Shown here in pieces: positions 40,724 through 60,883 of a DNA stretch of 64,000 bases. Origin of the DNA: Tatumella sp. JGM91 (GTDB lineage Bacteria > Pseudomonadota > Gammaproteobacteria > Enterobacterales > Enterobacteriaceae); NCBI RefSeq assembly GCF_018257575.1, contig NZ_JAERJP010000011.1, positions 124,001-188,000 of the forward strand, in the 5' to 3' direction. Under the pieces are notes generated by a model. That model saw only the letters and a list, made by a program, of their open reading frames with translations, had not been told where the DNA came from and did no database searches. How positions within the stretch are numbered: the stretch's first letter is position 1; the number at the start of each line of letters is the position of its first letter. The position numbers were made by a program, and so were the translations under genes.

Positions 40724-41089
40724 TCAGCCCCACACCAGTACCACGGTCCACACCAGAATAGTCAGGGTTACGGCCACCAGCTGGGCGGCACCGCTGATAT
40801 CCTTTGCTCTTTTTGAAAGGGGGTGGATCTGTGAGGATATGCGGTCAACGACGGTTTCGATGGCCGTATTCAGGAGTTCCACCACCAGTAACAAGAAACT
40901 GCAGGCGATCAATAGCAGTTTTTCCAGCGGCGGGACAGGCAAAAACAGGATAATGACCAGCAGCACACTATTAATAATGATTAACTGACGAAAAGCCTCT
41001 TCCGTAGAGAGTGCATTTTTAAACCCCTGCCAGGAGTTATTGATACTGGCAGTTAATCTTGCTAATCCTTTTTTTCTGCTCAGATTCAT
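40724..41089 (-). CDS. DgkA-like lipid kinase, candidate ceramide kinase
   Basis: Integral-membrane kinase of the prokaryotic DgkA family, 121 residues, three transmembrane helices. The active-site block VVELLNTAIETVVDRISSQIHPLSKRAKDISGAA carries Glu71, Asn74 and Glu78, equivalent to E. coli Glu69, Asn72 and Glu76. Outside that block it diverges strongly from E. coli DgkA, and it is not in the usual plsB-dgkA-lexA setting, so it is probably a second paralog. It lies 144 bases downstream of the ceramide-synthase-like gene on the same strand. E. coli DgkA is known to phosphorylate ceramide in vitro, so ceramide 1-phosphate formation is a reasonable inference; diacylglycerol recycling is the alternative. 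Confidence 0.88.
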   Translation of the reverse strand: MNLSRKKGLARLTASINNSWQGFKNALSTEEAFRQLIIINSVLLVIILFLPVPPLEKLLLIACSFLLLVVELLNTAIETVVDRISSQIHPLSKRAKDISGAAQLVAVTLTILVWTVVLVWG

Positions 41090-41233
41090 AAAAATAATAT
41101 TTTCCTTGTTGCGGTCAGTGTTAACCCGCGCTGGCCGGTCAGCACCGGCAGTAACAGGGTGATTACCGCCTTCTCAGTCACAGTTCTTCGTCTGTCACAG
41201 GTCAACGGGTAATTGCCCTGTGGGGGGCTGAGG

Positions 41234-42370
41234 CTATACCGGCGATGACAGTTGTTTATGATAGATACGGTAGCGTTTATAAACCACGGCACCAATCCGC
41301 TCCAGGATAGTGCGCATTCCGCTATTCGATTCCAAAATCCACGACATTTCCAGGCAATCAATCCGGTGGCGGGCGAAAGGCTCACGTAATGCTTCGATCA
41401 GTAATAAGGCAATAACCGGCCCGAGGCGGCTGAACTGATATTCGTGACGGACGCCCATTAAAGGGACTCTGGCTGTGCGTACACCACGGATTTTCAATCG
41501 CCACAATAGCCGGGCCCAGCCAAAGGGGAACAGGCTGCCATTCAGGCCGTTAATGGCTTCATTAATATTGGGCAGGCCGACGATAAATGCGCAGGGCACG
41601 CCATTGATTTCGGCAATGTAAATCATATCATCGGGCACCAGATATTTCAGTTGTCCCCCCATAGTGGCGAATTCATGGGCAGTAAAGGGGACAAATCCGC
41701 GGTTGTGCTGCCAGCCGGAGTTGAAAATATCACGCAGCAACTGCATTTCTGCGGAGAACTGCTTACGGTCCAGACGCCGAAGGGTGACTTTGCTGCTGGC
41801 CTGTGACATCAGTTTTCTCAGTGAGTCTGAGAAACACAGGTCTGTCCTTTTCATCCGGTAGGCCAGTAAATCCGTATCCTGAGCGTATCCCTGTTGTTCC
41901 AGACAGGCAGCGTAATAGGGTTTACCGTGGTTCATCATCGCCGACGGCGGGGTATCAAAACCGTCAATCAGTAATCCGCTTTCCTGATTAATATTCAGGC
42001 TAAAGGGACCGGTAATCATCACTGCCCCTTTGGACCGCAGCCAGGCCTCTGCAGCAGTAAATAATGCAGCGAATACGGCATTATCGTCGATAGCATCAAT
42101 CATACCGAAATGACCACTCTGGTTACCGTATAACTGCTGATGCAGGCGGTCGATCTGTGCCGTAATTCGTCCGACGATATGACCATTTTTTCTGGCCAGC
42201 CACGCCTGCCATTCGATATGTTCTGCAGCCGGATTTTTGTCTGAAAGATGTTCTGCACGTTCGACAAATAAAGGAATGATCCAGTTCGGGTCATCAGGGT
42301 ACAATGATGAAGGAAAATTAATAAAATCTTTAAGATCGTCTTTATCCTGTACAGCGTCAATTTGAATCAT
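41234..42370 (-). CDS. bcerS: bCerS-type GNAT N-acyltransferase (bacterial ceramide synthase)
   Basis: The 378 residues belong to the GNAT-like family (often mislabelled dATP pyrophosphohydrolase) that includes the Caulobacter ceramide synthase bCerS, which N-acylates the sphingoid base. Typical parts are FINFPSSLYPDDPNWIIPLFVERAEHL (about 17-43), GRITAQIDRLH, GPFSLNINQESGLLIDGFDTPPSAMM (about 121-146) with PYYAACLEQQGY, and a second GNAT fold in the C-terminal half. It is divergent from the acyl-ligase/SDR/ACP/SPT operon across 612 bases, which gives the strongest support for the assignment. The family is broad, so another amine substrate remains possible. Confidence 0.78.
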   Translation of the reverse strand: MIQIDAVQDKDDLKDFINFPSSLYPDDPNWIIPLFVERAEHLSDKNPAAEHIEWQAWLARKNGHIVGRITAQIDRLHQQLYGNQSGHFGMIDAIDDNAVFAALFTAAEAWLRSKGAVMITGPFSLNINQESGLLIDGFDTPPSAMMNHGKPYYAACLEQQGYAQDTDLLAYRMKRTDLCFSDSLRKLMSQASSKVTLRRLDRKQFSAEMQLLRDIFNSGWQHNRGFVPFTAHEFATMGGQLKYLVPDDMIYIAEINGVPCAFIVGLPNINEAINGLNGSLFPFGWARLLWRLKIRGVRTARVPLMGVRHEYQFSRLGPVIALLLIEALREPFARHRIDCLEMSWILESNSGMRTILERIGAVVYKRYRIYHKQLSSPV

Positions 42371-42982
42371 AAAAAGCCTTAAATAATATTACCGGCATCA
42401 GCCAGTACCGGTCAGTAACGGGGTATTTATATAACGGATATACTCACTGCCTCAGCAGCATTATTTCTTTCATTTATCTGAATAATAACTGGCGGAAAAT
42501 ATAATTTCATATTATATCCGATGGCTATTGCTATTCTCTTGCGGATGAAAAGTAATGACAGATATTTTTATAAAGCGTTAATCGTTTGGTGCTATTCAAA
42601 ATAATAGTTAATTAATGATTAGCTCCTGTTAATCGGAGTTTAAGATTTTTTCAATCTGTTATACTGTATTTTTATCACTTAATGCCTTTGGGTGCTGTAA
42701 AACAAATCAGAGATTCACTTTTAAACTACTTCCGGTTATTGTTTACGATATGTTTAACTTTGTTCGATCGCCGATAATACAAGGTGACTTTATAATGTTC
42801 CGGTTATAGCAGGGAAGTTTAGCTGCTGCTTGTTATTCTCACGGAGGTAAGCTGAAATAAAAATATTATCCTTTAGTGCGGGAGGATTTTCTCCGGGGAA
42901 AGCACTATTCAGTGAATGTCTTAAAAAATAAAACAGTAGTTTTTCAACCAATAATATCTGTCGTCGTTGGTGAATTAAATTT
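42371..42982. promoter_or_regulatory. AT-rich divergent region of the sphingolipid locus
   Basis: 612 bases without a supported gene, clearly richer in A+T than the flanking coding sequence. It must carry promoters for the bcerS-dgkA side and the acyl-ligase operon. TATACT at 42660-42665 is a fair -10 element reading right. The AT-richness suggests curved DNA or H-NS binding. No strong palindrome was found. Confidence 0.45.
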
Positions 42983-44734
42983 ATGGCTAATTTTTCTGTT
43001 AAAGAAACCAGTGCTACCCATTCTCTTCCCATGCGTTATGCTGATTTTCCGTCGCTGACGGCAGCGTTAGATTATGCTGCCCGGGGAAACAGCGGAATGA
43101 ATTTCTATGATCGCCGTAATCAGCTGACTGAAGTACTGGACTACACTGAACTCAGGCTACGGGCAGTCTCTGCCGCCGGTCGTTTGCTGTCGCTGGGGCT
43201 GAAAAAAGGTGACCGTGTTGGCTTAATTGCCGAAACCAGCGCCGGGTTTGCTGAGTCATTTTTCGCCTGTCAGTATGCGGGGCTGATTGCGGTCCCGCTG
43301 GCAATTCCGATGGGGATCGGTCAGCGAGCCTCCTATATTACCCGGTTACAGGGCCTGATTAATGACTGCGCACCGGCAGTGATTATTAGCGGTGAAGAGT
43401 GGCTGTCGCTGGTTCGTTCGGCGATGACGCAGGGATCCGGCCCTTATGTCCTCAGTCATCAGGAGATGCGTGCCTTGCCCTGCGGCCGGATACCGCTGAG
43501 CGAACCGTCCGGCGATGATATTGCCTATCTGCAATATACTTCCGGCAGCACGCGCTTTCCGCGCGGGGTGATCATTACCCAGCGGGCGGTCATGGCCAAT
43601 CTGCAGGTCATCAGCCATGATGGCATTAAATTACGTCCCGGCGATCGCTGTGTTTCCTGGCTGCCTTTTTACCATGATATGGGGCTGGTAGGGTTTCTGC
43701 TTACACCGGTGGCGACCCAGTTATCCGTTGATTATCTGCGTACCCAGGACTTCGCCATGCGACCGTTACAGTGGCTGAAACTGATTGATAAAAACCGCGG
43801 TACTGTCACGGTGGCACCACCGTTTGGTTATGATCTCTGTTTACGCCGCAGCAGTGAGAAAGAACTGGCAGGGATGGATCTCTCCTGTCTGCGGGTTGCG
43901 GGGGTCGGTGCCGAACCTATTCCTGCGGAACTGTTAGCCCGGTTCAGTGAGCACTTTGCCGTGGTCGGCGCTAACCCGACGGCATTTATGCCCTGCTATG
44001 GGCTGGCTGAAAATACCCTGGCGGTGAGTTTTTCTGATGAAAACTGCGGCGTACAGACGGATACGATCGACCGCGATATTCTGGAGTACGAGGGGCGGGC
44101 GGCTGTACCATCTGCCCGTACCCGCGCAGTATCTGTGTTTGTTAACTGCGGTAAAGCATTACCCGGTCACCGTATTGAAATCAGAAATGAAGCCGGAATG
44201 AGACTGCCTGAGCAACAGGTCGGCCATATCTGTATTTCCGGCCCCAGCCTGATGAGTGGCTATTTTGGTGACCCGCAAATACGAAAACAACTACTGAATA
44301 ACGGATGGATGGACACGGGAGATCTCGGATACCAGTCGGCAGGTTACCTGTATGTCACCGGACGTAAAAAAGATTTAATTATCATCCGCGGCCGCAATAT
44401 CTGGCCACGGGATATTGAGTATCTGGCGGAGTCGGAACCCGAAGTGAACAGGGGCGATGCCATCGCTTTTGTGACGGAGGATCACGGGGAGAATGCCCGG
44501 ATAATCCTGCAAATCCAGTGTCGGATCAGCTCAGAAGAACGTCGTAAACAGCTGGTCCGCTCGTTATCTGCCAGCATCCAGAGCGAATTCGGGGTGGTGG
44601 TGGAGATCGAACTGTTGCCGCCCCATAGTCTGCCGCGTACTTCTTCCGGTAAACCGGCGAGGGCAGAAGCGAGGAAGCGCTGGATGACCACGGCAGTCTG
44701 TCCTGCGCTGCCGGTCCCCGGATTCGCCCCATGA
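42983..44734 (+). CDS. Fatty acyl-AMP ligase / acyl-ACP synthetase
   Basis: Adenylate-forming enzyme of 583 residues, the usual FAAL length. It activates a fatty acid with ATP and should load it on the ACP encoded two genes downstream. The AMP-binding loop YLQYTSGSTRFPRG has TSGST at 186-190. Further motifs are WLPFYHDMGLVG, CYGLAENTLAVS (A5) and WMDTGDLGY (A7), and GRKKDLIIIRGRNIWPRDIE (A8/hinge). HDMGL and the arrangement around the hinge place it with FAALs rather than acyl-CoA ligases. In Caulobacter an acyl-ACP synthetase has this role in ceramide synthesis. Its stop overlaps the next start (ATGA). Confidence 0.87.
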   Translation: MANFSVKETSATHSLPMRYADFPSLTAALDYAARGNSGMNFYDRRNQLTEVLDYTELRLRAVSAAGRLLSLGLKKGDRVGLIAETSAGFAESFFACQYAGLIAVPLAIPMGIGQRASYITRLQGLINDCAPAVIISGEEWLSLVRSAMTQGSGPYVLSHQEMRALPCGRIPLSEPSGDDIAYLQYTSGSTRFPRGVIITQRAVMANLQVISHDGIKLRPGDRCVSWLPFYHDMGLVGFLLTPVATQLSVDYLRTQDFAMRPLQWLKLIDKNRGTVTVAPPFGYDLCLRRSSEKELAGMDLSCLRVAGVGAEPIPAELLARFSEHFAVVGANPTAFMPCYGLAENTLAVSFSDENCGVQTDTIDRDILEYEGRAAVPSARTRAVSVFVNCGKALPGHRIEIRNEAGMRLPEQQVGHICISGPSLMSGYFGDPQIRKQLLNNGWMDTGDLGYQSAGYLYVTGRKKDLIIIRGRNIWPRDIEYLAESEPEVNRGDAIAFVTEDHGENARIILQIQCRISSEERRKQLVRSLSASIQSEFGVVVEIELLPPHSLPRTSSGKPARAEARKRWMTTAVCPALPVPGFAP

Positions 44735-45645
44735 ACCGTACGGTTGCCCTGACCGGCGGCACCGGCTTTATTGGCCGGTATATCGTCGGTGATTTGCTAC
44801 GACGCGGGTTCAGGATCCGCGCCCTGACCCGTACTCAGCGTTCAGCCCCTGACGCACGGCTAAGCTGGGTGCATGGCTGTCTGGAAAGTCCGCAGGCGCT
44901 CTGTGAACTGGTTCGCGGGGCCGATGATGTGATCCATTGTGCCGGTCAGGTCAGAGGCGGCAGCGAAAACGTTTTTACCCGCACGAATCTGCACGGCAGC
45001 CAGGCGTTGTTACAGGCAGCTTTGCACAGCGGTCAGTGTCGCCGTTTTCTGTTTATCTCTTCTCTGGCCGCCCGCCATCCGGAACTTTCCTGGTACGCCG
45101 CTTCTAAACACCGGGCTGAGCAGCAACTGCAGACGCTTGCAGGAGATATTTCCCTCGGTATCTTCCGGCCGACAGCGGTCTATGGCTGTGGTGATAAAGA
45201 ACTTTACCCGTTATTGAACGGCCTGTTACGCGGGGTATTACCCTGCCCGGCAGGCCATGACGGGACACTTTCTTTTCTGCACGTCAGTGATTTAGCTACT
45301 GCAGTCAGCCAGTGGCTGCTGAGCGCATCTCCGGCCACCGGTATTTATGAACTCTGTGACGGCATGCCAGGAGGCTATAGCTGGAAACGCCTGCAGCTCA
45401 TCGGGGTCAGTGTCCGCCGGGGGCCGGTATGGCGGGCCAGTATCCCGTTAACGGTGCTGAGATTACTGGCGGCGATCTCTGTGCAGTGCCACCGCGTGAC
45501 GGGGAAAGCACCAATGCTTACCCCGGCTAAAATCCGCGAAATCATCCATCCGGACTGGTCTGCCAGTAATCAGCGGCTGACTGCCGCTATCAGCTGGCGT
45601 CCTGAAGTGAGTCTCGAACGTGCTTTACGTGAGCGGCTTTTTTAA
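44731..45645 (+). CDS. NAD(P)-dependent SDR reductase, CerR-like
   Basis: Extended short-chain dehydrogenase of 304 residues. GGTGFIG at 9-15 binds the nucleotide; Ser110/Ser111 and Tyr122-xxx-Lys126 (WYAASKHRAE) form the catalytic set. In Caulobacter the epimerase-like SDR CerR reduces the keto group of 3-oxo-ceramide or the keto base in the sphingolipid pathway. Position between acyl ligase and ACP/SPT genes, with a four-base overlap upstream, argues for the same job here. The family alone would not reveal the substrate. Confidence 0.82.
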   Translation: MNRTVALTGGTGFIGRYIVGDLLRRGFRIRALTRTQRSAPDARLSWVHGCLESPQALCELVRGADDVIHCAGQVRGGSENVFTRTNLHGSQALLQAALHSGQCRRFLFISSLAARHPELSWYAASKHRAEQQLQTLAGDISLGIFRPTAVYGCGDKELYPLLNGLLRGVLPCPAGHDGTLSFLHVSDLATAVSQWLLSASPATGIYELCDGMPGGYSWKRLQLIGVSVRRGPVWRASIPLTVLRLLAAISVQCHRVTGKAPMLTPAKIREIIHPDWSASNQRLTAAISWRPEVSLERALRERLF

Positions 45646-45675
45646 TTCTCTGAACCGAGGTTTTACAACGTAGCT

Positions 45676-45936
45676 ATGCTAAATCGTGATGCTGTGATGA
45701 CCTGTATTCTGACCTGCCTGAAAAATATTGCTGACAGTGGTGTGGAAATCACCCCCGACAGCGATTTGATTAATGACCTGGGGCTGGAATCTGTCAGGGT
45801 GCTGGATTTGCTGATGATGCTTGAAGATAAACTGGATATCTCGATTCCGATTAATATCCTGCTGGACGTCAGAACTCCGCGGCAGTTACTGAACGCCTTG
45901 CAACCCTGGCTGGAGAACGCAAATGGGTCTTTATGA
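45676..45936 (+). CDS. Acyl carrier protein (dedicated)
   Basis: An 86-residue ACP with the phosphopantetheine site at Ser39 in DLINDLGLESVRVLDLLMMLE. It differs from the fatty-acid-synthesis AcpP and is probably the acyl donor carrier for the SPT reaction. Its 3' end overlaps the SPT gene by 14 bases, pointing to tight coupling. No strong ribosome site precedes the first ATG; a second in-frame ATG seven codons later is possible. Confidence 0.9.
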   Translation: MLNRDAVMTCILTCLKNIADSGVEITPDSDLINDLGLESVRVLDLLMMLEDKLDISIPINILLDVRTPRQLLNALQPWLENANGSL

Positions 45937-47095
45937 TAAATTCTCCCGTTTGAAAAACCAGCGGCAGTATTTCAGTCACTCGGGACTGAATCCGTTCGGT
46001 ACCTGCATCGATGAAGTTTATTCGGCAACTGAGGGACGTATCGGCGACCGGCGGGTAATACTCGCCGGGACCAACAATTATCTGGGCCTGACTTTCGACC
46101 CGCAGGCAATAGCTGACGGTCAGATGGCAATGGCACAGCAGGGCACCGGAACCACGGGCTCACGGATGGCCAACGGCAGCTATGGTTCCCACCTTGCACT
46201 GGAACAGGAACTGGCGGCATTTTTTGGCCGTCCGTCGGCGATTGTGTTCTCTACCGGATATACGGCTAATCTGGCAGTGATCAGTACGCTGGCCTGTCCC
46301 GGGGCAGTGGTATTAATAGATGCGGACAGCCATGCCAGTATCTATGATGCCTGCGCACTGGGCGGGGCAGAGATTATCCGCTTCCGGCACAATGATGTGG
46401 CCGATTTGGATCGCCGCCTGCAACGGCTGGGAGAGCGGGCTGCAGAGGCACTGATCATTGTCGAAGGCATTTACAGCATGCTGGGGGATGTTGCCCCGCT
46501 GGCGGAGATTGTCGCTGTAAAAAAACAGCGGGGTGGCTACCTGCTGGTGGATGAAGCGCACTCGTTCGGCGTGACCGGGCCTAATGGCCGCGGACTGGCT
46601 GAAGAAGCGGGTGTGGAACAGGATGTTGATATTATTCTGGGCACATTCAGTAAAAGTCTGGCCGCGATTGGCGGTTTTGCTACCGGCAGTAAAGAGATGG
46701 AAGTACTGCGTTACAGCAGCCGGCCATATATTTTCACCGCATCGCCTTCCCCGGCCAGTATTGCCTCAGTGCGGGCCTCTTTACGTACCATTGCCGGTTG
46801 CCCGGCATTGAGAAATAAGTTGTGGGACAACGCGAGACGTTTATACCACGGGCTGTCATTGGCCGGTTATCAGTCGGGGCCGCGCATTAGCCCGGTGGTG
46901 CCGGTGATGATTGCTTCGCAGGAGGAAGGGCTGCGCTTATGGCGTGACCTGATTGATCACGGGGTGTACGTTAATCTGGTCTTGCCCCCGGCGGCCCCGG
47001 CCGGTATGACTCTGCTGCGCTGCAGCGTCAATGCGGCGCACAGTGAACAGCAAATTGATAAAATTATTCAGGTATTTACCCGGCTAAAACAATAA
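45923..47095 (+). CDS. spt: Serine palmitoyltransferase-type alpha-oxoamine synthase
   Basis: PLP enzyme that condenses L-serine with an acyl thioester to a 3-keto sphingoid base, the committed step of sphingolipid synthesis. The 390 residues include the PLP lysine Lys244 in LGTFSKSLAAIGGF, Asp210 and His213 in VDEAHSFG, and His137 that stacks on the cofactor. The GTFSKS form, followed by GGF, resembles bacterial SPT rather than KBL (TLGKALGG) or BioF. Genetic context (dedicated ACP, FAAL, SDR, bCerS) supports SPT. Alternative alpha-oxoamine products with another amino acid cannot be excluded. Confidence 0.85.
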   Translation: MGLYDKFSRLKNQRQYFSHSGLNPFGTCIDEVYSATEGRIGDRRVILAGTNNYLGLTFDPQAIADGQMAMAQQGTGTTGSRMANGSYGSHLALEQELAAFFGRPSAIVFSTGYTANLAVISTLACPGAVVLIDADSHASIYDACALGGAEIIRFRHNDVADLDRRLQRLGERAAEALIIVEGIYSMLGDVAPLAEIVAVKKQRGGYLLVDEAHSFGVTGPNGRGLAEEAGVEQDVDIILGTFSKSLAAIGGFATGSKEMEVLRYSSRPYIFTASPSPASIASVRASLRTIAGCPALRNKLWDNARRLYHGLSLAGYQSGPRISPVVPVMIASQEEGLRLWRDLIDHGVYVNLVLPPAAPAGMTLLRCSVNAAHSEQQIDKIIQVFTRLKQ

Positions 47096-47103
47096 CCGTC
47101 ACA

Positions 47104-47136
47104 GGATTACGCATAATGATGGCGGATGCGTAATCC
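47104..47136. repeat. Perfect 11-bp inverted repeat between spt and the convergent kinase-like gene
   Basis: GGATTACGCAT (47104-47114) and ATGCGTAATCC (47126-47136) enclose an 11-base loop. There is no T tract, so it is not a classic terminator, but it sits exactly where transcription from both sides should end. Confidence 0.7.
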
Positions 47137-47145
47137 GGACAATGG

Positions 47146-47874
47146 TTATTGCCGCGGTGCATTACCGGCAGGAGGGCAGTAGCCGCGACGTTCCATAAAC
47201 TGCCCGATTGCCTGACCGGCGAGGGTAATCACCTGATTCAGGGGCTGATCGGCATCAATATCCACCACTTCTGCATTACTGAAAGTAAGCTGTGGTGTCA
47301 CCGCTATTTTTCTGGCCAGTTTTTCTTCAGAATGGTCGGGTTTTCGCTGGCAGGCAATATTCAGACTGACATTCAGTTTAATCACCATATCCGGTTGTTG
47401 CAGGGTCATCCATGCAAATAACTTACGTTCTTTTTCTGCCATCCGCTGAATAACCCGTCCGGCGGTTATCTGTTCGGGGAATGACGGACTGTCATAGCCG
47501 CCGGGCACCTGTGTTTGCGGAAAACGGTCAGTGAGTACAATATATCCTTTACGCCGGTATTTCAGCATCCTGCGAAAACGTAATAACCGTCGTCCGACAA
47601 AAGCCATAATAACCAGCGCGGATAACAGACTGACATTTGCCTGTGGTGATTTTATTTTCTTTGTATTATGTACAATGGCTTTTTTTAATGGTTTACCCAG
47701 TAAAGGTAAAGCAGATAATGCACGGCCGGTGTTTCCTGCCTGTTTACCTAAATGTACCGGCATCGCCGGGCCATATCTTCGCAGTTCATTGATCAGATAT
47801 TTACAAATCGTTGACTTTCCCGAACCATCACTGCCAATAACCGCAATTAGCGGTGGCCAACTGGAATTTATCAT
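47146..47874 (-). CDS. Thymidylate-kinase-like P-loop protein, paralog 1
   Basis: P-loop kinase of 242 residues. The Walker A motif is GSDGSGKST (about 14-22). The shared signatures with the two paralogs below are TDRFPQ (about 115-120) and RKPDH (near 180). True Tmk has DRY..S and acts in dTTP synthesis, so these proteins form a distinct branch. It is convergent with spt and divergent from paralog 2 across 258 AT-rich bases. Role unknown; phosphorylation of a lipid or head group is inference from context. Confidence 0.75.
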   Translation of the reverse strand: MINSSWPPLIAVIGSDGSGKSTICKYLINELRRYGPAMPVHLGKQAGNTGRALSALPLLGKPLKKAIVHNTKKIKSPQANVSLLSALVIMAFVGRRLLRFRRMLKYRRKGYIVLTDRFPQTQVPGGYDSPSFPEQITAGRVIQRMAEKERKLFAWMTLQQPDMVIKLNVSLNIACQRKPDHSEEKLARKIAVTPQLTFSNAEVVDIDADQPLNQVITLAGQAIGQFMERRGYCPPAGNAPRQ

Positions 47875-48132
47875 GGTTTGCTCTTTTGATAAAATAATCC
47901 CGAATATAACAGCTGTTATTTAATAATTCTGCAAAAAACAGGGCATTTTAGTGCCGGTGGTGGACAAATAGTGCTTAGTTATTATGTGATATTTATTTAA
48001 GTGATAAATAAATTAAAGTAATAACCGGAAGTTATTTTATGTTTTTGACTTTAATTGCGCATTTCAGTTTTGCTATGTTGAATATGTCTTTATTTAGAAT
48101 AAAATGATTTTTTTAATTTATGGATAATCACT
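47875..48132. promoter_or_regulatory. AT-rich divergent promoter region between two kinase-like genes
   Basis: Strongly AT-rich (for example 47990-48120). It must drive paralog 1 leftward and the paralog 2 operon rightward. No specific operator is evident. Confidence 0.4.
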
Positions 48133-48858
48133 GTGTCTGCACAGGAAATAAAAAACCTTCCTCCGTCGGCAGGGAAAATAATTGCTATCACAGGTTGTGA
48201 TGGCTCCGGAAAATCAACGCTGGCGAACAGTCTGGTGAATTACTTATCTGCATACAACCCTACAGAACTGATTTATCTCGGTCAGTCATCAGGGGCGATA
48301 GGCCGATGGCTGGGACAGTTGCCGCTGGTTGGCGGGCCGGTGGGGCGGTTTCTTTTATCCCGCGCACAGCGGGTCAGTGAACATCCCTCCCGTCTGCCGG
48401 GCAATCTGACCGCACTGGTCATCTTCTTACTTTCTTGCTGGCGAGGTTATAAATTCCGGAAAATGCTGAAGAAAGCCCGCCAGGGGAGATTGCTGATCAC
48501 CGATCGCTATCCGCAGGCTGAGGTCGCAGGGTTTCGGGTTGATGGCGCACAACTGGCGAAAACCAGTGGCGGAAACCGCTGGCTGGGCTGGCTGCGCCGC
48601 AGGGAGCAGAGGTTGTACCAGTGGATGGCCTCATACCCGCCGCGGTTGCTGATTCGGCTGAACGTGGACGAACAAACCGCCTGTACCCGCAAGCCGGATC
48701 ATCCTGCGGTGGCATTGCGCGAAAAAATAGCGGTGATCCCGTCTCTGACCTTTAACGGGGCCACCATTATTGATCTTGATGGTACTGCGCCTGCCGCCGA
48801 GATCTGTCAGGCATCGTTACGTGCCATACTCCAGCGACTGACCCCGCCAGATATGTGA
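48133..48858 (+). CDS. Thymidylate-kinase-like P-loop protein, paralog 2
   Basis: P-loop kinase of 241 residues with a GTG start (an ATG 13 bases upstream is out of frame). Walker A is GCDGSGKST, followed by the family signatures TDRYPQAEVAGF (about 119-130) and CTRKPDH (about 179-185). A hydrophobic stretch near 95-108 (LTALVIFLLSCWRGYKF) also occurs at the same place in the other paralogs and could contact membrane. It starts the rightward run of genes kinase-kinase-flippase-unknown-ytfJ-lptF-lptG. No activity is known for this branch. Confidence 0.75.
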   Translation: MSAQEIKNLPPSAGKIIAITGCDGSGKSTLANSLVNYLSAYNPTELIYLGQSSGAIGRWLGQLPLVGGPVGRFLLSRAQRVSEHPSRLPGNLTALVIFLLSCWRGYKFRKMLKKARQGRLLITDRYPQAEVAGFRVDGAQLAKTSGGNRWLGWLRRREQRLYQWMASYPPRLLIRLNVDEQTACTRKPDHPAVALREKIAVIPSLTFNGATIIDLDGTAPAAEICQASLRAILQRLTPPDM

Positions 48859-48885
48859 TGGTCAGGGAATTTTCAGGCGAAATTT

Positions 48886-49653
48886 ATGAAAACAGAAACT
48901 CCGTTCAACACCCGCCGTCCGGCTGAGTGCATTAAGGGACTGATTGCGGTGGTCGGCAGCGATGGCACCGGTAAGTCGACCCTGACAGCTGATATCGTTA
49001 ACCGCCTGAGGGTACAGCGTCCGGTGGTACGGCGCTACCTTGGACTTATTTCCGGTGAAAATGGCGACAAAATTAAACAATTACCGCTGATTGGCATCTG
49101 GCTGGAACGCAGGCTGGCGGCCAAATCTGATAAAAGCCAGCGTATGAGCAACCAGGCTCCGTCCCTGTGGGTGGCGCTGATTATGTATGGTTTTTCTCTG
49201 TGGCGGGCCGCCTGTTTGCGTAAAACGGTACGGCTGGCAGACAGCGGAGTGCTGGTGATCTGTGATCGTTACCCACAGGCGGAAATATCCGGCTTCTATT
49301 ATGACGGGCCGGGCATTGGTATCGAACGGGTCAGGGGCCGCTTACTGACACGGCTGGCCGAAAGTGAACGGCGTCTCTATCAGCAGATGGCCTCAATCCG
49401 TCCCGGACTGATCCTGCGGCTGGATATTGACGCGGATACGGCATTTTCCCGTAAACCGGATCACTCTTACGAAGAGTTGCAGGACAAAATTTCACAGATG
49501 CAGCGTATCAGCTATAACGGCGCCCGTATTATTGAGCTGGACTCACGGATCGCTTATCCACGGGTGCTGAGTAATGCATTAGCGGCAATTTCGCGACTGG
49601 CTTCTGACGGCGGTGATATCCGACAGCAGCAGGATATTTTTTATGGAAAATAG
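48886..49653 (+). CDS. Thymidylate-kinase-like P-loop protein, paralog 3
   Basis: P-loop kinase of 255 residues, 27 bases behind paralog 2. Walker A is GSDGTGKST (about 24-32), then the hydrophobic segment LWVALIMYGFSLW, CDRYPQAEISGFYYDGP (about 125-141) and SRKPDHSYEELQDKI. The three paralogs are as different from each other as separate families would be outside these motifs, so they are old duplicates with probably different substrates. Confidence 0.75.
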   Translation: MKTETPFNTRRPAECIKGLIAVVGSDGTGKSTLTADIVNRLRVQRPVVRRYLGLISGENGDKIKQLPLIGIWLERRLAAKSDKSQRMSNQAPSLWVALIMYGFSLWRAACLRKTVRLADSGVLVICDRYPQAEISGFYYDGPGIGIERVRGRLLTRLAESERRLYQQMASIRPGLILRLDIDADTAFSRKPDHSYEELQDKISQMQRISYNGARIIELDSRIAYPRVLSNALAAISRLASDGGDIRQQQDIFYGK

Positions 49654-49698
49654 CCTGATAGCCGGCCACTGTCCGGTAAAATGTGCGGACGGTAAACC

Positions 49699-51033
49699 AT
49701 GAAGCACTGGTTGCGTGACGGTGCCTTCCGTTCCCTGTTACGTAATGCTGTCAGTCTTTGCTGCGGCAGTGTGGTCAGTGCGTTGCTCGGTTTGCTGGCC
49801 TTATCCTGTGCAGGTAAAGGTATGACGCCACGTATGTTCGGCGTGCTGGTGGTTATTCAGGCCTATAACAAAGCCGTCAGTGACCTGATTAAGTTTCAGA
49901 CCTGGCAGTTTGTGGTGCAGTTTGGCACCCCGGCCCTGCAGGAGAATAATACTGGCCGCTTCCGTGAAGTCGTCCGCTTTTCATTCGGTCTGGATATCGT
50001 CAGTAGTCTGATAGCAATTACTGGCGGGATTGGTTTGTTGCCGTTTCTTACCTCCTCCCTGGGGTTAGACCGGGAAACCCTCTGGCTGGCGATGGTGTAT
50101 TGCACCTTAATCCCTTCCATGACTTCTTCGACACCGACCGGTATTTTACGCGCCCTGGATCGCTTTGATTTAATTGCGATACAGCAGGCGGTCAGGCCAT
50201 TTTTACAGGCGGCGGGCAGCGTGATTTGCTATTACTTCAGGCTCGGTTTTGCGGGGTTTATGATCAGCTGGTATATCGCTAACCTGGCAGGCGGCAGCCT
50301 TTTCTGGTGGTTTGCCGGACGGGAACTGAAACGGCGTAATATCCGTCATGCGCTGAAACCGGCCCTGTTTGGCGCGGCCAGAAACCTGCACGGGGCCTGG
50401 GACTTTGTCTGGACGACCAATATCGCTCATACCCTGTGGGCGGCAAGAAACTCATGCAGCACCGTGCTGGTCGGACTGGTCTCCGGCCCGGCGGCTGCCG
50501 GGTTATTTAAAATAGCCATGACCTTTTATGATGCTACCGGAACACCGGCCCGGTTACTGGAAAAAAGCTTTTATCCGGAAGTGATGCGGCTTGACCCGCG
50601 AACCTCCGCTCCCTGGCGACTGGGGTTACGTGCAGCCCTGATGGCCGGAGGACTGGGTATTGCTGTGGCCTTACTGGTGCTGGTGGCGGGAGAACCGTTA
50701 ATTACGGCGGTGTTTGGTCATCAGTATCTGGCGGCTTACGATTTAATCAAAATTATGCTGGGGGCCACCATAGTATCGATGCTGGGGTTCCCGCTGGAGT
50801 CGTTACTGTTGATGGCCGGAAAACAGCGGGCGTTTTTAATCTATCAGGTACTGGCCTGTTTCTGTTACCTGATATTACTGACTGGCAGTTGTTATCTGTC
50901 CGGTGTGCGGGGGGCCGCCTATGCTTACTTTGCCGGACAATGCCTGAGTATGTTGTTAACCCTGATCCCGACACTGCGTGCCTACCGTGGCCGTCACCGG
51001 CCGGGACGGATTATGTTCCGCGAGAGGCAGTAA
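49699..51033 (+). CDS. Polysaccharide/lipid flippase, Wzx/MOP type
   Basis: Inner-membrane protein of 444 residues with about 12 hydrophobic helices, typical of the oligosaccharidyl-lipid flippase group of the MOP superfamily. The start LRNAVSLCCGSVVSALLGLLALSCAGKGMTPRMFG is like Wzx proteins, in which this loop is conserved. No glycosyltransferase, polymerase or chain-length regulator gene is nearby, so it is not part of an ordinary O-antigen locus. It may flip a sphingolipid or a head-group intermediate across the inner membrane. Confidence 0.78.
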   Translation: MKHWLRDGAFRSLLRNAVSLCCGSVVSALLGLLALSCAGKGMTPRMFGVLVVIQAYNKAVSDLIKFQTWQFVVQFGTPALQENNTGRFREVVRFSFGLDIVSSLIAITGGIGLLPFLTSSLGLDRETLWLAMVYCTLIPSMTSSTPTGILRALDRFDLIAIQQAVRPFLQAAGSVICYYFRLGFAGFMISWYIANLAGGSLFWWFAGRELKRRNIRHALKPALFGAARNLHGAWDFVWTTNIAHTLWAARNSCSTVLVGLVSGPAAAGLFKIAMTFYDATGTPARLLEKSFYPEVMRLDPRTSAPWRLGLRAALMAGGLGIAVALLVLVAGEPLITAVFGHQYLAAYDLIKIMLGATIVSMLGFPLESLLLMAGKQRAFLIYQVLACFCYLILLTGSCYLSGVRGAAYAYFAGQCLSMLLTLIPTLRAYRGRHRPGRIMFRERQ

Positions 51034-51034
51034 C

Positions 51035-51883
51035 ATGGGTAAACACTGGCAAAAGTTCCCTGCCGAAACCACGGCATTATTATTTCAGGCGGTGGAAGAG
51101 GATGATGTTATCGGGGCCGGAGACAGCCTGCCGGCCTGTGCTGAATTCGGCTACCCGTCACTGGTGTTGTATGAAAACTACGCCCTTTGTCTGCAATTCT
51201 GGGAAGAGGGCTGTCACCGTAAAGAACTGCTGGCGCTGATCAATACATTTCTGAAGAACAGTAACCAGCCACTGGCGGTGCGGATGCGCTACAAATATAT
51301 CCGTGCCCGTTACAAACACCTGCGCTTTGCCCTGCGGCTGTACAGTACCGGTCACCGGCCTGGTCGTTTGCTGAATATGACGACGGTGATGCTTGGCCAC
51401 TTTCAGGATGCCTTCCGCCACGGGAATCAGGGGCAACTACGTAAATATGGCTATATCCTGCGCGGACTACTGAGTACAGCTGTCTGGTCAGTGATTGATT
51501 ATGCACTGCAGCATACGGAAATTGAGACTGAGCAGGGGTTTGCCGTTTACCGGCGGGCAGAGCTACAGCGGCTGCGGCAATTAACCACCCGCCAGACGCT
51601 GAGTGGCGCAGAATTCCATGAGCTGAGAAAAATCGTCAGCCAGCAGCTGTCCTTTTATGACACTTTGCGTTCACTGGCCCCGGAAAATATCCATGCCCGT
51701 CAGATGTCCGGATTTATGGCGGTGATTAACGGCCTGATGGGGGACCGTCATGACCAGATGGTGGCTGATAAACTGTCAGGCGGTGATATCTACGATCGGC
51801 CGGCACCACTGGACAGTGATATCCGCCGGCGTCTGGAACAGTTACTGACCGCTTTTTCCTTACCGGCAGAGGGTAACCGATGA
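51035..51883 (+). CDS. Conserved-looking protein of unknown function (282 aa)
   Basis: The ATG at 51035 lies two bases behind the flippase stop and is preceded by GAGAGG; an earlier in-frame start overlaps the flippase and is less likely. The protein is rich in His, Arg and Leu, predicted all-helical, without signal peptide or membrane segment. A block with spaced His/Arg (RMRYKYIRARYKHLRFALRLY) recalls CHAD-like helical phosphate-binding domains, but I cannot assign it. It overlaps the YtfJ-like gene by four bases (ATGA), so it belongs to the same operon. Confidence 0.7.
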   Translation: MGKHWQKFPAETTALLFQAVEEDDVIGAGDSLPACAEFGYPSLVLYENYALCLQFWEEGCHRKELLALINTFLKNSNQPLAVRMRYKYIRARYKHLRFALRLYSTGHRPGRLLNMTTVMLGHFQDAFRHGNQGQLRKYGYILRGLLSTAVWSVIDYALQHTEIETEQGFAVYRRAELQRLRQLTTRQTLSGAEFHELRKIVSQQLSFYDTLRSLAPENIHARQMSGFMAVINGLMGDRHDQMVADKLSGGDIYDRPAPLDSDIRRRLEQLLTAFSLPAEGNR

Positions 51884-52497
51884 CCCTGTTCCGCTATCTG
51901 ATACTGCTGCCATGGCTGATCATCCACGCGGCGGCGGCACATAATCTGGTGTACGGCCAGCCGGTGGCCCCGCTGCAGATCAGGGATCGCGGTCAGCTGG
52001 TTGTCAGTGCTCAGAGTATCAGCTACCGTCCCTGGGACAGTGGTGAACTGGCAGGTAAGGTGAGGGTCGTACTGGTGATGGCCGGACGCAGCACCGTAAA
52101 ACACAATGATCATCAACTGATGATCGCCGTAAAGCATGCCCGCTTTCCGGTCACGGCCTTCCAGCCGGTGATTATTGTGAATATGGACGATACTGTTCCC
52201 GGAACAGGTTATTTTGTGCGTCGGAAAATAGAAAAGCTCCAGCAACGTTATCCGTGGGCCCTGTTTGTTATCGATAATGACGGGCAGGTCGGCAGGCGCT
52301 GGCAGCTGAAGGCAGACAGCAGTGCGCTGGTTGTGCTGGATAAAGGCGGCCTGGTCCGACGGGTTGAGGAAGGCCCGCTGACAGCGGCCGACAGCCGTCA
52401 GGTATTCAGTCTGTTACAACAGCTGGTCGCCGGGGAGCGGCAGGAGGCGCTAAAACCGCGTGCTGTCATGGCGGAGAAAAACCATGGGGGTAATTGA
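51880..52497 (+). CDS. YtfJ-family periplasmic thioredoxin-fold protein
   Basis: The 205 residues match the YtfJ family (E. coli YtfJ, 184): signal peptide to about residue 20 (IIHAAAAH), then VAPLQIRDRGQLVV, the AGKVRVVLVMAGRSTVKHN segment, IVNMDDTVPGTGYFVRRKIEK and YPWALFVIDNDGQVGRRWQL. The fold is thioredoxin-like but there is no CxxC pair, so a redox role is unlikely. The C-terminal tail is about 20 residues longer than in YtfJ. It is probably a second, specialised paralog that acts in the periplasm beside the LptF/G-like proteins; the genes overlap by 14 bases. Confidence 0.82.
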   Translation: MTLFRYLILLPWLIIHAAAAHNLVYGQPVAPLQIRDRGQLVVSAQSISYRPWDSGELAGKVRVVLVMAGRSTVKHNDHQLMIAVKHARFPVTAFQPVIIVNMDDTVPGTGYFVRRKIEKLQQRYPWALFVIDNDGQVGRRWQLKADSSALVVLDKGGLVRRVEEGPLTAADSRQVFSLLQQLVAGERQEALKPRAVMAEKNHGGN

Positions 52498-53551
52498 ACG
52501 CTATCTGATGCGCGAAATAGCCCGTCAGGCGATACTGATCAGCGGCTTGCTGGTGGTGATGTTCGCCAGCTACTCGGCACAACGTTATCTGACGGAAGCG
52601 GCAAACGGGACCCTGGCTCTGCCGGTTGTTCTGGCGGTAATATTTTATAAAATAGTGATCTCACTTGAAATGCTTTTACCGGTCGGATTATATGTGGCTG
52701 CCGCAGTGGTTCTGGGGCGACTGCACACGGATTCGGAAATAACTGCATTTTTTGCCTGTGGTGGCAGTCCGTGGCGGGTGTATACAGCGGTACTGTTTCC
52801 GGCGGTGGTGCTGGCGTTGCTGGTTTCGGTGTTGTCGCTGTATGGCAGACCTCGCGCGTATAACCAGATTTACCAGTTGCAGCAACAGTCACAGTCAGCA
52901 CTGGATGTCAGCCATTTACAGGCAAATACGTTTAATCAGAATAACAGTGGCAGAATGGTGCTGGCCGCGGGGATTGATCCTGCTACCCGTCAGTTAACCG
53001 ATGCACTTATCTACTCGCGCACCGGCAATATTACCCGTTTATACCGTGCGCAACGAGTCACTGTCACTGATCCGTCCCCGCTCCGTCCCGGGGTGCGATT
53101 ACAGGCGGGCACCGCCTATCGTCTCGACCGGCAGGGCAGGGATGATAACCTGCAACATTATAATGTGTTGCAAATGGCGCTGAAACCGACGGTGATACCG
53201 CTACGCACTGGGCAGAAGTCTGCCACGGTCAGGCAGTTGTTAGATGTACCGGTCCCCGGAAATATCGCAGAATTGCAATGGCGACAAAGCCGCGGCATCA
53301 ATACCCTGATGATGGTGTTGCTTGCGGTGCCTCTGAGCCGCTGCCGCCCCCGCCAGGGGCGCTATGCCGCGCTGTTGCCATTAACGCTGGTATTTATTGC
53401 CATATTTTATGGCGGAAATCTGTGCCGTACCCTGGTGGCCAATAACTCGTTGCCGGAGATCCCCGGGGGCTGGCTGGTGACGGTGAGCATCGCCACAGTC
53501 TTACTGATGCTGATGTTCAGGGACTTTTCGTCACTGCGGCACCGTGTCTGA
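52484..53551 (+). CDS. LptF-like permease of an LPS-export-type ABC transporter
   Basis: Inner-membrane subunit of 355 residues from the ATG at 52484 (GGAG 8 bases upstream); an earlier in-frame start lies inside the ytfJ-like gene. Six helices in a 3 + periplasmic beta-jellyroll + 3 layout are expected. The LptF/G coupling segment is visible as GRLHTDSEITAFFACGGSPWRVY. In enterobacteria the essential lptFG pair sits next to pepA, which is absent here, so this is a paralog. It is likely to use the cell's LptB ATPase, as no ATPase gene is nearby. Inferred cargo: the sphingolipid made upstream. Confidence 0.83.
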   Translation: MGVIERYLMREIARQAILISGLLVVMFASYSAQRYLTEAANGTLALPVVLAVIFYKIVISLEMLLPVGLYVAAAVVLGRLHTDSEITAFFACGGSPWRVYTAVLFPAVVLALLVSVLSLYGRPRAYNQIYQLQQQSQSALDVSHLQANTFNQNNSGRMVLAAGIDPATRQLTDALIYSRTGNITRLYRAQRVTVTDPSPLRPGVRLQAGTAYRLDRQGRDDNLQHYNVLQMALKPTVIPLRTGQKSATVRQLLDVPVPGNIAELQWRQSRGINTLMMVLLAVPLSRCRPRQGRYAALLPLTLVFIAIFYGGNLCRTLVANNSLPEIPGGWLVTVSIATVLLMLMFRDFSSLRHRV

Positions 53552-54621
53552 TGGGGATTATCGAACGTTACCTGATCCGTTATCTGTTCTTCGGTTGTGC
53601 GGCTTCAGCGGCTCTGTTGTTGCCGGTTTTTTCCACGTTTAATCTGATGAGTCAGCTGGAGGATGTCACTGCCAGCGGCTATCGCTGGCCGCAGGCTCTG
53701 CTGGTGGTGGTTATGACGGTGCCGCGCACCCTGGTCGATATCGGCCCGTTTATTGCCTTACTCGGTGGTATTACCGGACTCGGGCTGCTGGCAAAAAACC
53801 AGCAACTGACGGCGATGCGCAGTGCAGGACTTTCTGTCTGCGCCCTTGGCCGGGTGATGCTATTGGCGGGGGCGATGGCGGCCGTGATATCTGCGGCGGT
53901 CGATCAGTGGATTGCTGCACCTCTGCAGCAACAGGCGCTGGTGATCAAAGCACGCGCTCAGACCGATCTGCCGGAGGGTAAAAATACCTTATGGGCGCGG
54001 CGAAATAATCAATTTGTTACCCTCAGATATCCGGATGCAGCCGGTGAGCCGTTTGATATTGAGATTTTCATCTACAATCCGGACTTCACCCTTAACCGCT
54101 ACTGCTATGCCCGTACCGCAACCCCTGAAAAAAATGGTTTCTGGACCTTGCATCAGGTCACCCGGAAACAATGGCGGCAGGGACAGGAAACCCTGAGCAG
54201 CCTTGAACAGACAGCGTGGCAACCGATACTCCCGGCGGCGCGTTTGCCGGATCTGATACAGCCTCCGGACAGTTTCTCAGTACAGCAGTTATGGCACTAT
54301 ATTGGTTATCTGCAATCCTCCGGACAACCGGACAACCAGTACCGGATTAGTTTATGGAAAAAAGCAGGACAGCCAGTGCTGATGGTGGCGATGCTGTTAC
54401 TGGCCGTTCCTTTCACTCTGAATGCACCCCGCGCCTCGGCAGGAGGGCGGCTGGCTGTCGGGGTCATTACCGGATTGCTGACCTATATCAGTTACCAGGT
54501 GGTACTGAGCCTCGGGTTACTGCTGTCATTCAACCCGCTGCTGACGGCACTGTTACTGCCTCTGAGTCTCCTGTTGCTGGCACTGATACTGCTGCGGCGT
54601 TTTGACCGGCACCATCAGTAA
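53551..54621 (+). CDS. LptG-like permease of an LPS-export-type ABC transporter
   Basis: Partner of the preceding gene, overlapping it by one base (TGATG). The 356 residues start MGIIERYLIRYLFFG, include the LptF/G segment LLAKNQQLTAMRSAGLSVCALGRVM (about 90-114) and a periplasmic domain, and end with three helices. E. coli LptG has 360 residues. Together with LptF-like it can form the membrane half of an ABC extractor that lifts a lipid from the inner membrane toward a periplasmic bridge. No lptA/C/D-like gene is seen, so a bridge would have to be shared with LPS. Confidence 0.83.
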   Translation: MGIIERYLIRYLFFGCAASAALLLPVFSTFNLMSQLEDVTASGYRWPQALLVVVMTVPRTLVDIGPFIALLGGITGLGLLAKNQQLTAMRSAGLSVCALGRVMLLAGAMAAVISAAVDQWIAAPLQQQALVIKARAQTDLPEGKNTLWARRNNQFVTLRYPDAAGEPFDIEIFIYNPDFTLNRYCYARTATPEKNGFWTLHQVTRKQWRQGQETLSSLEQTAWQPILPAARLPDLIQPPDSFSVQQLWHYIGYLQSSGQPDNQYRISLWKKAGQPVLMVAMLLLAVPFTLNAPRASAGGRLAVGVITGLLTYISYQVVLSLGLLLSFNPLLTALLLPLSLLLLALILLRRFDRHHQ

Positions 54622-54924: not shown

Positions 54925-56271
54925 ATGGTGAATCTAAACAAATTCAGACAGGGGCCGCAGACGAAAGCACGGGTACTGGCATTTTTCAATATCAGGCCTG
55001 AAGAGTGGCAGCCTTTGCTCTGGTGTATGGCTTATATCTTCTGCCTGTTATGTTCCTACTATATTTTACGGCCAGTCAGAGACACGCTGGGTGTTGAAGG
55101 AGGAGTGCATAACCTGCAATGGTTATTCACTGCCACATTACTCTGTATGCTGGTGCTGAATATTCCCTTTTCGGCGTTATCCCGTTCGGTTCCGCGGCAG
55201 CGTCTTATCCCGCTGATTTATTACTTTTTTGTCATTAATTTACTGATTTTTGCTGCACTGATGTACTGGTTACCGGCCGGTGAACGGGTGTGGGCGGGGC
55301 GGTTGTTTTTTGTCTGGGTGTCTGTATTTAACCTGTATGCGGTTTCCGTATTCTGGGTGCTGGTGTCGGATTTATTCAGTACCGAGCGTGCCGGACGGTT
55401 GTTTGCCCTGATGGCAGCCGGTGCCACTGTCGGTGCTATCGGGGGCTCTTTTCTGACAACCCTGTTTGCCCGTCTGCTGAATATCAGCGGACTATTGCTG
55501 TGTTCGGCACTGCTGTTGTTATGCGCCATATTTTGTGTACGGCGGTTAATTCATCATTCCTGCGGGCTGAGCCGATCCGCTGCGACTGATACCTCAGTCA
55601 GTCGCGACAATGACGCCCCGGCCCTCGGCGGCAGTATTTTTGCCGGTATCACACATACTTTCCGTTCGCCGTACCTCAGGAATATCTGTCTGTATATGTT
55701 GTTGTTTTCCACGACATCGACCCTGTTGTATTTTCGGCAGGCGGATTTGGTCAGACATGCGTTTAACAGTGAAGATGCCCGCACCACTTTCTTTGCAGCC
55801 ACCGACCTCGCGGTCAATATCCTGACACTACTGACCCAGGTTTTTATCGCCAGCCGGTTGCTTAACCGTTATGGCACGGCTCTGGTGCTCTGTTTTCTGC
55901 CGGTTCTGACCATCATCGGTTTTTTATCGTTATCTCTGTGGCCGACCCTGCTGGCGGTCATGCTGTTCAGCATATTCCGCCGTGCCGGGAATTTTGCCCT
56001 GGCCCGGCCGGCGCGTGAGGTGTTGTTTACCGTGTTACAACGGGAAGATAAATACAAAGCGAAAAGTTTTATTGATACGGCTGTGTACCGGGCGGGTGAT
56101 CAGGTGGGTGCCTGGAGCTGGGCGGCGATGGGGGCCATCGGTATACCGGTGGCTCTGATGGCGTGGGTGGCAGTGCCTCTGTCATTACTGTGGTGGGTTA
56201 ACAGTTTATGGCTGGGACGCAGACAGCGGGTGATTGCTGATCACCATCGCCGGCAGCCTGAACAGTACTGA
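54925..56271 (+). CDS. ATP/ADP-translocase-like (TLC/NTT) membrane protein
   Basis: Twelve-helix transporter of 448 residues, related to nucleotide transporters of intracellular bacteria but in the MFS-like branch common in free-living proteobacteria. Features are the N-terminal YYILRPVRDTLGVEGG, VLVSDLFSTERAGRLFALMAAGATVGAIGGS and FRRAGNFALARPAREVLFTVL with a KYKAKSFIDTAVYRAGDQ motif. Nucleotide exchange is not demonstrated for this branch. It follows the lptG-like gene after 303 bases and may or may not belong to the sphingolipid system. Confidence 0.75.
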   Translation: MVNLNKFRQGPQTKARVLAFFNIRPEEWQPLLWCMAYIFCLLCSYYILRPVRDTLGVEGGVHNLQWLFTATLLCMLVLNIPFSALSRSVPRQRLIPLIYYFFVINLLIFAALMYWLPAGERVWAGRLFFVWVSVFNLYAVSVFWVLVSDLFSTERAGRLFALMAAGATVGAIGGSFLTTLFARLLNISGLLLCSALLLLCAIFCVRRLIHHSCGLSRSAATDTSVSRDNDAPALGGSIFAGITHTFRSPYLRNICLYMLLFSTTSTLLYFRQADLVRHAFNSEDARTTFFAATDLAVNILTLLTQVFIASRLLNRYGTALVLCFLPVLTIIGFLSLSLWPTLLAVMLFSIFRRAGNFALARPAREVLFTVLQREDKYKAKSFIDTAVYRAGDQVGAWSWAAMGAIGIPVALMAWVAVPLSLLWWVNSLWLGRRQRVIADHHRRQPEQY

Positions 56272-59209: not shown

Positions 59210-59256
59210 AACTTACACCCTTTAATTTATATTGGGTAAGCATTAGTGAATAACTA

Positions 59257-59565
59257 TCAACTGACTAATGCACTGAGTTTTTCGATCAGTTTGTTCGGCG
59301 ATTTGACTGCGATTTCGGTGGAAACTTTAACGATTTTTTTCCCCGCGAAACGCTCTTCTCCGGAAATCTGCACGTCAGCAGCTAACAGCACGATATCTGC
59401 GCTGGCAATTTCATCAGCAGTCAGGGGATTTTCGATGCCAATGGTACCCTGGGTTTCGATCTTCACATTATGCCCGGCCTTTTTGGCGGCAATCTCAATC
59501 TTTTTCTGCGCAATATAGGTATGTGCAATGCCTACGGTACAAGCAGTAACGCCTACAATATTCAT
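59257..59565 (-). CDS. Fructose-type PTS EIIB
   Basis: Cytoplasmic phosphocarrier of 102 residues with the active cysteine Cys9 in GVTACTVGIAHTYIAQ. It receives phosphate from EIIA and passes it to the sugar in EIIC. The gene lies 47 bases upstream of the EIIC gene. Confidence 0.92.
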   Translation of the reverse strand: MNIVGVTACTVGIAHTYIAQKKIEIAAKKAGHNVKIETQGTIGIENPLTADEIASADIVLLAADVQISGEERFAGKKIVKVSTEIAVKSPNKLIEKLSALVS

Positions 59566-59647
59566 CGGTATTCTCCATAATGTTTCAATGTTTTTAACTT
59601 ATTGCATCACGGGCGAAATCCGCTGCCGGATAACATCAGCGGTGATG

Positions 59648-60106: not shown

Positions 60107-60181
60107 AACTTACCTTCTTTACTAATGGGTGATAGTTAATTACCGTATATACACCATGACCTGAATATATTTCCTGTGGTG

Positions 60182-60859: not shown

Positions 60860-60883
60860 AAATTGCCTCCCGTATAAAATGAG

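Follow-up and report, generated by a model that had tools for sequence, protein, structure and literature searches.

A fourteen-gene block around the ceramide synthesis genes

In a 64,000-nucleotide stretch of the Tatumella sp. JGM91 genome (contig NZ_JAERJP010000011.1, positions 124,001 to 188,000; hereafter the window), we identified a conserved block of 14 genes, running from dgkA2 to lptG2 (40724-54621; Table 1), that holds a complete set of bacterial ceramide synthesis genes. We consider it probable, at roughly 85%, that the product of this block is a ceramide-based lipid and that the block also serves its transport to the outer membrane. The original prediction had described five genes at 41234-47095, and an open reading frame (ORF) check confirmed them there, i.e. 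cerS divergent from an aasR-cerR-acpR-spt operon with overlaps of 4 bases (aasR/cerR) and 14 bases (acpR/spt), and with a gap of 30 bases between cerR and acpR. The motifs it had listed, TSGST, YAASK, Ser39 of the acyl carrier protein (ACP) and the pyridoxal 5′-phosphate (PLP) lysine Lys244, are all present in the sequence. Although the gene set was right, the extent was too short, since the conserved block runs from dgkA2, which follows cerS on its strand at a distance of 144 bases, to lptG2 well beyond spt. All reading frames in the block are open, in a genome of 3.5 Mb. The start of the CHAD-like gene was set from homologues; its ORF opens at 50978.

Table 1. Genes of the conserved block, with window coordinates and the basis of their assignment
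Gene	Coordinates	Strand	Assignment and support
dgkA2	40724..41089	-	Second prokaryotic diacylglycerol kinase, separate clade; PF01219, 107.9 bits (cut-off 22.3)
cerS (bCerS / Aca / YghO)	41234..42370	-	Predicted tandem GNAT N-acyltransferase; YghO of E. coli B 75% identical
aasR	42983..44734	+	Acyl-ACP synthetase, fatty acyl-AMP ligase family; NF006624, 827 bits (cut-off 600)
cerR	44731..45645	+	NAD-dependent epimerase/dehydratase-type reductase, YAASK; PF01370
acpR	45676..45936	+	Dedicated acyl carrier protein, Ser39; PF00550
spt	45923..47095	+	Serine palmitoyltransferase; NF047599, 606.7 bits (cut-off 500)
yghT-like	47146..47874	-	P-loop kinase-like; TIGR00041, 26.2 bits (under cut-off 83); 59% to E. 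coli B YghT
yghS-like	48133..48858	+	P-loop kinase-like; TIGR00041, 24.8 bits (under cut-off); 70% to E. coli B YghS
yghR-like	48886..49653	+	P-loop kinase-like; PF02223, 25.6 bits (under cut-off 27); 62% to E. coli B homologue
yghQ-like	49699..51033	+	MOP-family flippase; PF01943, 33 bits (cut-off 28.2); 69% to E. coli B homologue
CHAD-like	51035..51883	+	All-helical protein; predicted structure
YtfJ-family	51880..52497	+	PF09695, 161 bits; start resembles a signal peptide (by eye)
lptF2	52460..53551	+	Second LptF-type permease; PF03739, 170 bits
lptG2	53551..54621	+	Second LptG-type permease; PF03739, 212 bits

Identity of the ceramide synthesis enzymes

The PLP enzyme scored above the cut-off of the curated serine palmitoyltransferase (SPT) model NF047599 but under those of the BioF model (329, cut-off 426), the glycine C-acetyltransferase model (288, cut-off 460) and the 5-aminolevulinate synthase and alpha-hydroxyketone autoinducer synthase models. 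Among solved structures, serine palmitoyltransferases came closest to it (best E 4e-120). A tree of 35 proteins, built by a quick method without bootstrap and containing some long branches, separated an SPT side of 21 rows (the window Spt, 17 gamma-like, 2 alpha and 1 Bacteroides) from 14 other alpha-oxoamine synthases with a support of 94; three of these 14 were scanned, and all three are glycine C-acetyltransferases. The position of acpR directly upstream of spt, with aasR nearby, also agrees with the neighbourhood rule of PMC9386255, according to the available text of which spt of alpha-, beta- and gamma-proteobacteria occurs together with genes for an ACP and an acyl-ACP synthetase, and acyl-AcpR is the preferred substrate of Spt from Caulobacter, E. 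coli B and Sphingomonas wittichii. KBL, BioF and CAI-1-type synthases belong to the same fold family and their models do give below-cut-off scores, but an enzyme of this kind, the product of which would be no sphingoid base, is highly improbable here, given the separation by models and tree and the linkage of AcpR, AasR, CerR and CerS to spt. A KBL or BioF identity, which the original prediction had named as the outcome that would count against it, was rejected on this comparison. The PLP enzyme is thus a serine palmitoyltransferase as judged by curated model and tree. It is 81% and 79% identical to plasmid copies in Rahnella aquatilis and Klebsiella michiganensis, and the best named matches (among the best 80 of 542), from Serratia, Pantoea, Erwinia, Mangrovibacter and others, are ∼80% identical.

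Compared with the E. coli B ceramide set, the window proteins show identities of 75% (CerS), 70% (AasR), 59% (CerR), 68% (AcpR) and 75% (Spt). On sequence grounds all five are orthologous to that set, and the predicted complete ceramide synthesis set was therefore borne out, each member having an E. coli B orthologue at 59-75% identity. According to the available text of PMC9386255, E. coli B Spt, AasR and AcpR have been assayed, and all five ceramide genes are clustered in both Caulobacter and E. coli BL21. The acyl-AMP ligase, the epimerase-type reductase and the ACP could be assigned clearly to their families by sequence. CerR is an epimerase-type short-chain dehydrogenase/reductase with the YxxxK motif and is encoded inside the spt operon, which makes it the putative reductase of the pathway.

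The original prediction had seen a GNAT family pattern in the divergent gene cerS; none of the Pfam GNAT models recognised either the window CerS or YghO, even at E up to 5, whereas the predicted structure is a tandem GNAT. In the AlphaFold2 model (mean predicted local distance difference test (pLDDT) 82, with residues 127-150 below 50), similarity to tandem GNAT structures was found at E ∼1e-14 to 1e-13, with template modelling scores of about 0.55-0.6 and root-mean-square deviations of 6-7 angstrom across both domains. The gene yghO is named as the acyltransferase (aca) gene of E. coli BL21, a homologue of the Caulobacter acyltransferase, in the available text of PMC9386255. By sequence, CerS is orthologous to YghO, through which it is tied to the Caulobacter enzyme.

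Transport and accessory proteins of the block

The genome has four LptF/LptG genes. LptF2/LptG2 are 26% identical to the other pair and, by this divergence, appear as a second pair distinct from that for lipopolysaccharide (LPS). The YghT, YghS and YghR proteins are mutually paralogous (33-40%), with scores to thymidylate kinase models that are all below cut-off; against solved structures, YghR gave weak thymidylate kinase matches only (E 0.02-0.04).

For the CHAD-like protein, Pfam returned nothing at E up to 0.001 and, at 0.0087, a chance-level match below cut-off, with no match to CHAD. Pfam searches at loose thresholds for this protein, CerS and the P-loop proteins returned nothing useful. 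Its AlphaFold2 model is all-helical (pLDDT 92) and, in the VIA list, matched 6qv5 (CHAD; Z 12.5), 3e0s (11.8), 6qva (CHAD with polyphosphate; 11.4), 6rn5 (11.2) and ygiF (7.9), followed by the next entry at 6.5, in a range of Z that helical models can reach by chance. We take 3e0s, 6rn5 and ygiF to be CHAD proteins. Since Foldseek matched the model to 6qv5 at just E 0.27, a CHAD fold is no more than likely, and the protein may bind phosphorylated compounds. The E. coli B homologue is annotated 'hypothetical protein'.

Comparison with known sphingolipid loci

In the E. coli B/BL21 locus (glcC-pitB; yghO, ECD_02851-02854 and neighbours; PMC9386255), the five ceramide genes have the same order as in the window, with cerS divergent, and homologues of YghR/S/T, the flippase, the CHAD-like and YtfJ-like proteins, LptF2 and LptG2 are also present. 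It differs in having no dgkA2 beside yghO, in the inversion of its second half, so that lptG2 adjoins spt, in protein identities of 45-75% and in its other chromosomal neighbours. The Rahnella aquatilis (CP042359.1) and Klebsiella michiganensis (NZ_CP106839.1) loci have all 14 genes in identical order and orientation, dgkA2 included, but unlike the window they are on plasmids.

The Caulobacter crescentus region CC_1152-CC_1168 shares with the window the five ceramide genes, LptF2, LptG2 and a potential flippase, as far as the available text of PMC11324152 describes it. In that text, transport of sphingolipids to the outer membrane by the extra LptF/LptG/LptC and flippase proteins is a proposal, untested there. 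Caulobacter differs from the window in that it encodes CpgB (CC_1160), a ceramide kinase, and has more genes for a phosphorylated head group (CC_1161, 1159, 1158, 1153 and 1152). Of the Caulobacter head-group genes, our search covered CpgB.

Occurrence and spread of the ceramide genes

The original prediction had held sphingolipid synthesis to be unexpected in most Enterobacterales. This did not stand, because E. coli BL21 has been published with assayed enzymes (PMC9386255) and a match to spt (∼70% DNA identity) is present in 4077 of 5426 complete E. coli genomes, covering at least 80% of the gene in 4047. The core set is of an already known kind, and its presence in the window is unsurprising. 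Across 343 genomes sampled from the family, spt was above cut-off in 31 (16 of 154 genera), and within the genus in three of six genomes, the other three being without it. The ceramide set is thus sparse in the family yet common in E. coli.

To compare gene content we used 84 loci (32 Enterobacterales-type and 52 other), a selected sample because the contig part came from the best 80 of 542 matches. Presence was scored by tblastn (E up to 1e-6 and >40% of the query), and since loci end at contig ends or 10 kb, absences may be missed presences. The Enterobacterales-type loci comprise E. coli B, two plasmids and 29 from named genome contigs. YghR/S/T homologues occur in all 32, and the core set of five is complete in 31; the flippase, CHAD-like, YtfJ-like, LptF2 and LptG2 genes are each found in 31, and dgkA2 in 18. 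Locus L035 is without five genes within its 21 kb, and L058 ends before cerS. The title of L058, Martelella alba, names an alphaproteobacterial genus and may be wrong; the locus resembles an Enterobacterales one and was counted among the 32. Locus L001 (genome G048), from a genome of the same taxonomic order, has an Spt just 54% identical to that of the window, and genome G143 has two spt genes above cut-off in separate places.

The congeneric genome G005 has the same order from dgkA2 to lptG2, followed by an MFS/TLC gene. Within the 40 kb compared, G005 has weak matches or none to the window's other neighbours, save an MlrA-like gene that lies ∼15 kb past lptG2 there versus 1.7 kb in the window. 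This patchiness, the plasmid copies and the unlike flanks fit horizontal transfer.

E. coli K-12 MG1655 (NC_000913.3:3129043-3134823) has yghO, IS5, a shorter yghQ, yghR, yghS and yghT at the corresponding place. Eight E. coli B genes between yghO and the yghQ homologue are unannotated in K-12, for which the simple reading is an IS5-linked loss. With IS5 in place of these genes in K-12 and such a scattered occurrence in family and genus, the block might be intact but silent or rarely expressed, with little or no sphingolipid made in culture. We regard this as unlikely, as all frames are open, the overlaps are tight and the retention of spt matches in three-quarters of E. coli genomes suggests use.

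A second DgkA encoded beside the ceramide synthase gene

The genome has two DgkA genes, 42% identical to each other. In a quick tree of 47 rows of ∼120 residues, without bootstrap and with several long branches, 29 DgkA2 copies separated from 17 housekeeping copies and one beta-proteobacterial protein (Shimodaira-Hasegawa-like approximate likelihood ratio test 99). DgkA2 keeps the family residues AFR, E..N.AIE..DR and RAKD, which have a catalytic role in DgkA, and also has invariants of its own. Searches with the window protein (E up to 1e-35, set to exclude housekeeping DgkA, and which may miss diverged copies) found DgkA2 in 16 of the 343 genomes (9 genera). All 16 are among the 31 spt genomes, and in every one dgkA2 is on the same contig as spt, 5.2-6.4 kb away start to start (hypergeometric P = 2e-19 by genome and 1e-10 by genus, uncorrected for shared ancestry). 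In 18 named loci dgkA2 adjoins cerS. What is new here is this separate DgkA2 clade that is always near spt; the core ceramide genes were already known. No DgkA copy tied to a bacterial ceramide locus was found among the literature matches listed, which covered titles and abstract openings, with subscription literature mostly outside.

CpgB-like kinases were present in at least 15 of the 52 other loci; the 32 Enterobacterales-type loci had none, and no locus of the 84 combined one with DgkA2. The first figure is a lower bound because the P. luteola CpgB falls just outside its locus stretch. In the window, no CpgB-like gene was matched at E up to 1 by a P. veronii CpgB-like protein, which we infer to be the orthologue of Caulobacter CpgB. 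The genome's single DAGK_cat gene is probably YegS, since it is on another contig and matches the CpgB-like protein at E 0.7 only. By family, DgkA2 is one of the small membrane kinases of the DgkA type, which we take to be unrelated to CpgB. Four Pseudomonas/Azotobacter records have a DAGK_cat gene ∼7-10 kb from spt (assuming for P. luteola that contig numbers agree). Place and family suggest that these are CpgB, as does the available text of PMC11324152, in which at least 13 of the 17 Caulobacter genes are said to have orthologues in each of P. luteola and A. vinelandii.

The step proposed for DgkA2, ceramide phosphorylation, is the same as that of Caulobacter CpgB (CC_1160), an assayed ceramide kinase which, unlike DgkA2, shares a GGDG motif with eukaryotic ceramide kinases (available text of PMC10331486). 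A ceramide kinase function is our leading idea for DgkA2, although a tentative one. E. coli DgkA has long been used for laboratory phosphorylation of ceramide, and it also recycles diacylglycerol left by other transfers of head groups from phospholipids. Close behind as a possibility, DgkA2 may leave ceramide alone: a head group could be moved from phosphatidylethanolamine or phosphatidylglycerol onto the sphingolipid, with DgkA2 recycling the leftover diacylglycerol. The retained residues of a family named for diacylglycerol suit this alternative, as does the restriction of our Caulobacter head-group search to one gene. Against it, a housekeeping DgkA is still present in 11 of 11 DgkA2 genomes examined (among 17 picked genomes: 10 of the 16 DgkA2 genomes, G005 and six without DgkA2), so that a dedicated copy would be unneeded for diacylglycerol recycling, and family scans recognised no phospholipid-using head-group transferase in the block.

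If DgkA2 does act on ceramide, Enterobacterales might have swapped the CpgB-type kinase for a dedicated DgkA copy. DgkA2 would then be a new, unrelated class of ceramide kinase that feeds ceramide phosphate to a second Lpt system, helped by the orphan YghQ/R/S/T proteins still found in K-12. We put this forward with less than even confidence.

A proposed pathway to an outer membrane sphingolipid

For the synthesis steps, we relied on homologues in E. coli B or Caulobacter for which assays or mutants have been published, and from these we infer activity here. AasR would adenylate a free fatty acid and load it onto Ser39 of AcpR, and Spt would condense acyl-AcpR with L-serine to give 3-oxo-sphinganine. 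N-acylation by CerS and reduction by CerR would then yield dihydroceramide; the available texts of PMC11087976 and PMC9386255 show the order of these two reactions to be disputed. At the inner membrane, DgkA2 may phosphorylate the ceramide hydroxyl, YghR/S/T and the CHAD-like protein may handle the phosphorylated head group, and the YghQ-like flippase may turn the lipid over. Finally, LptF2/LptG2, with the cell's LptB and bridge, could deliver it to the outer membrane. The original prediction of a dihydroceramide-like product was incomplete, as dihydroceramide is probably an intermediate. DgkA2, the three P-loop kinase-like proteins, the flippase and the additional LptF/LptG pair of the block suggest a modified lipid that is sent to the outer membrane.

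Several points weigh against this proposal. In the relevant literature, as far as its available text extends, we found no description of ceramide from a wild-type enterobacterium. LptF2/LptG2 could carry another lipid, DgkA2 could serve diacylglycerol, and the roles suggested for YghR/S/T and the CHAD-like protein come from fold or weak family scores. Moreover, dgkA2 was not seen in 14 of the 32 Enterobacterales-type loci (L058 ends before that place), including all three loci titled E. coli (L027, L042 and L062), and 15 of the 31 spt genomes are without DgkA2 at E up to 1e-35. Phosphorylation by DgkA2 therefore cannot be a requirement of the whole pathway.

Genes flanking the block

Beside lptG2, at 54925-56271, lies a gene for an MFS / ATP-ADP-translocase-like (TLC) transporter, which borders the block in both G000 and G005. 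It was left out as a pathway member, with a homologue in six of six genus genomes, three of which are without spt over the cut-off. LysR, EamA, MlrA-like and PTS-like neighbours were likewise not taken as block members, as they do not adjoin the block in the 40 kb compared in G005. From translations only, a run of minus-strand genes at 58103-62146 includes some PTS-like and epimerase-like genes, and an ORF at 62949 resembles a LacI-type regulator.

Implications for Enterobacterales

The block gives the E. coli genes yghQ, yghR, yghS and yghT, annotated only as putative, a sphingolipid-locus context. K-12 yghO, which still bears the label of a putative DNA-binding regulator, is an orthologue of the gene proposed to encode ceramide synthase, and DgkA2 is a candidate for the missing ceramide kinase. 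Provided that the lipid is indeed produced, the capacity to make a sphingolipid for the outer membrane could be shared by many natural E. coli strains, while K-12 is without those genes at the locus, and such a lipid might bear on LPS dependence.

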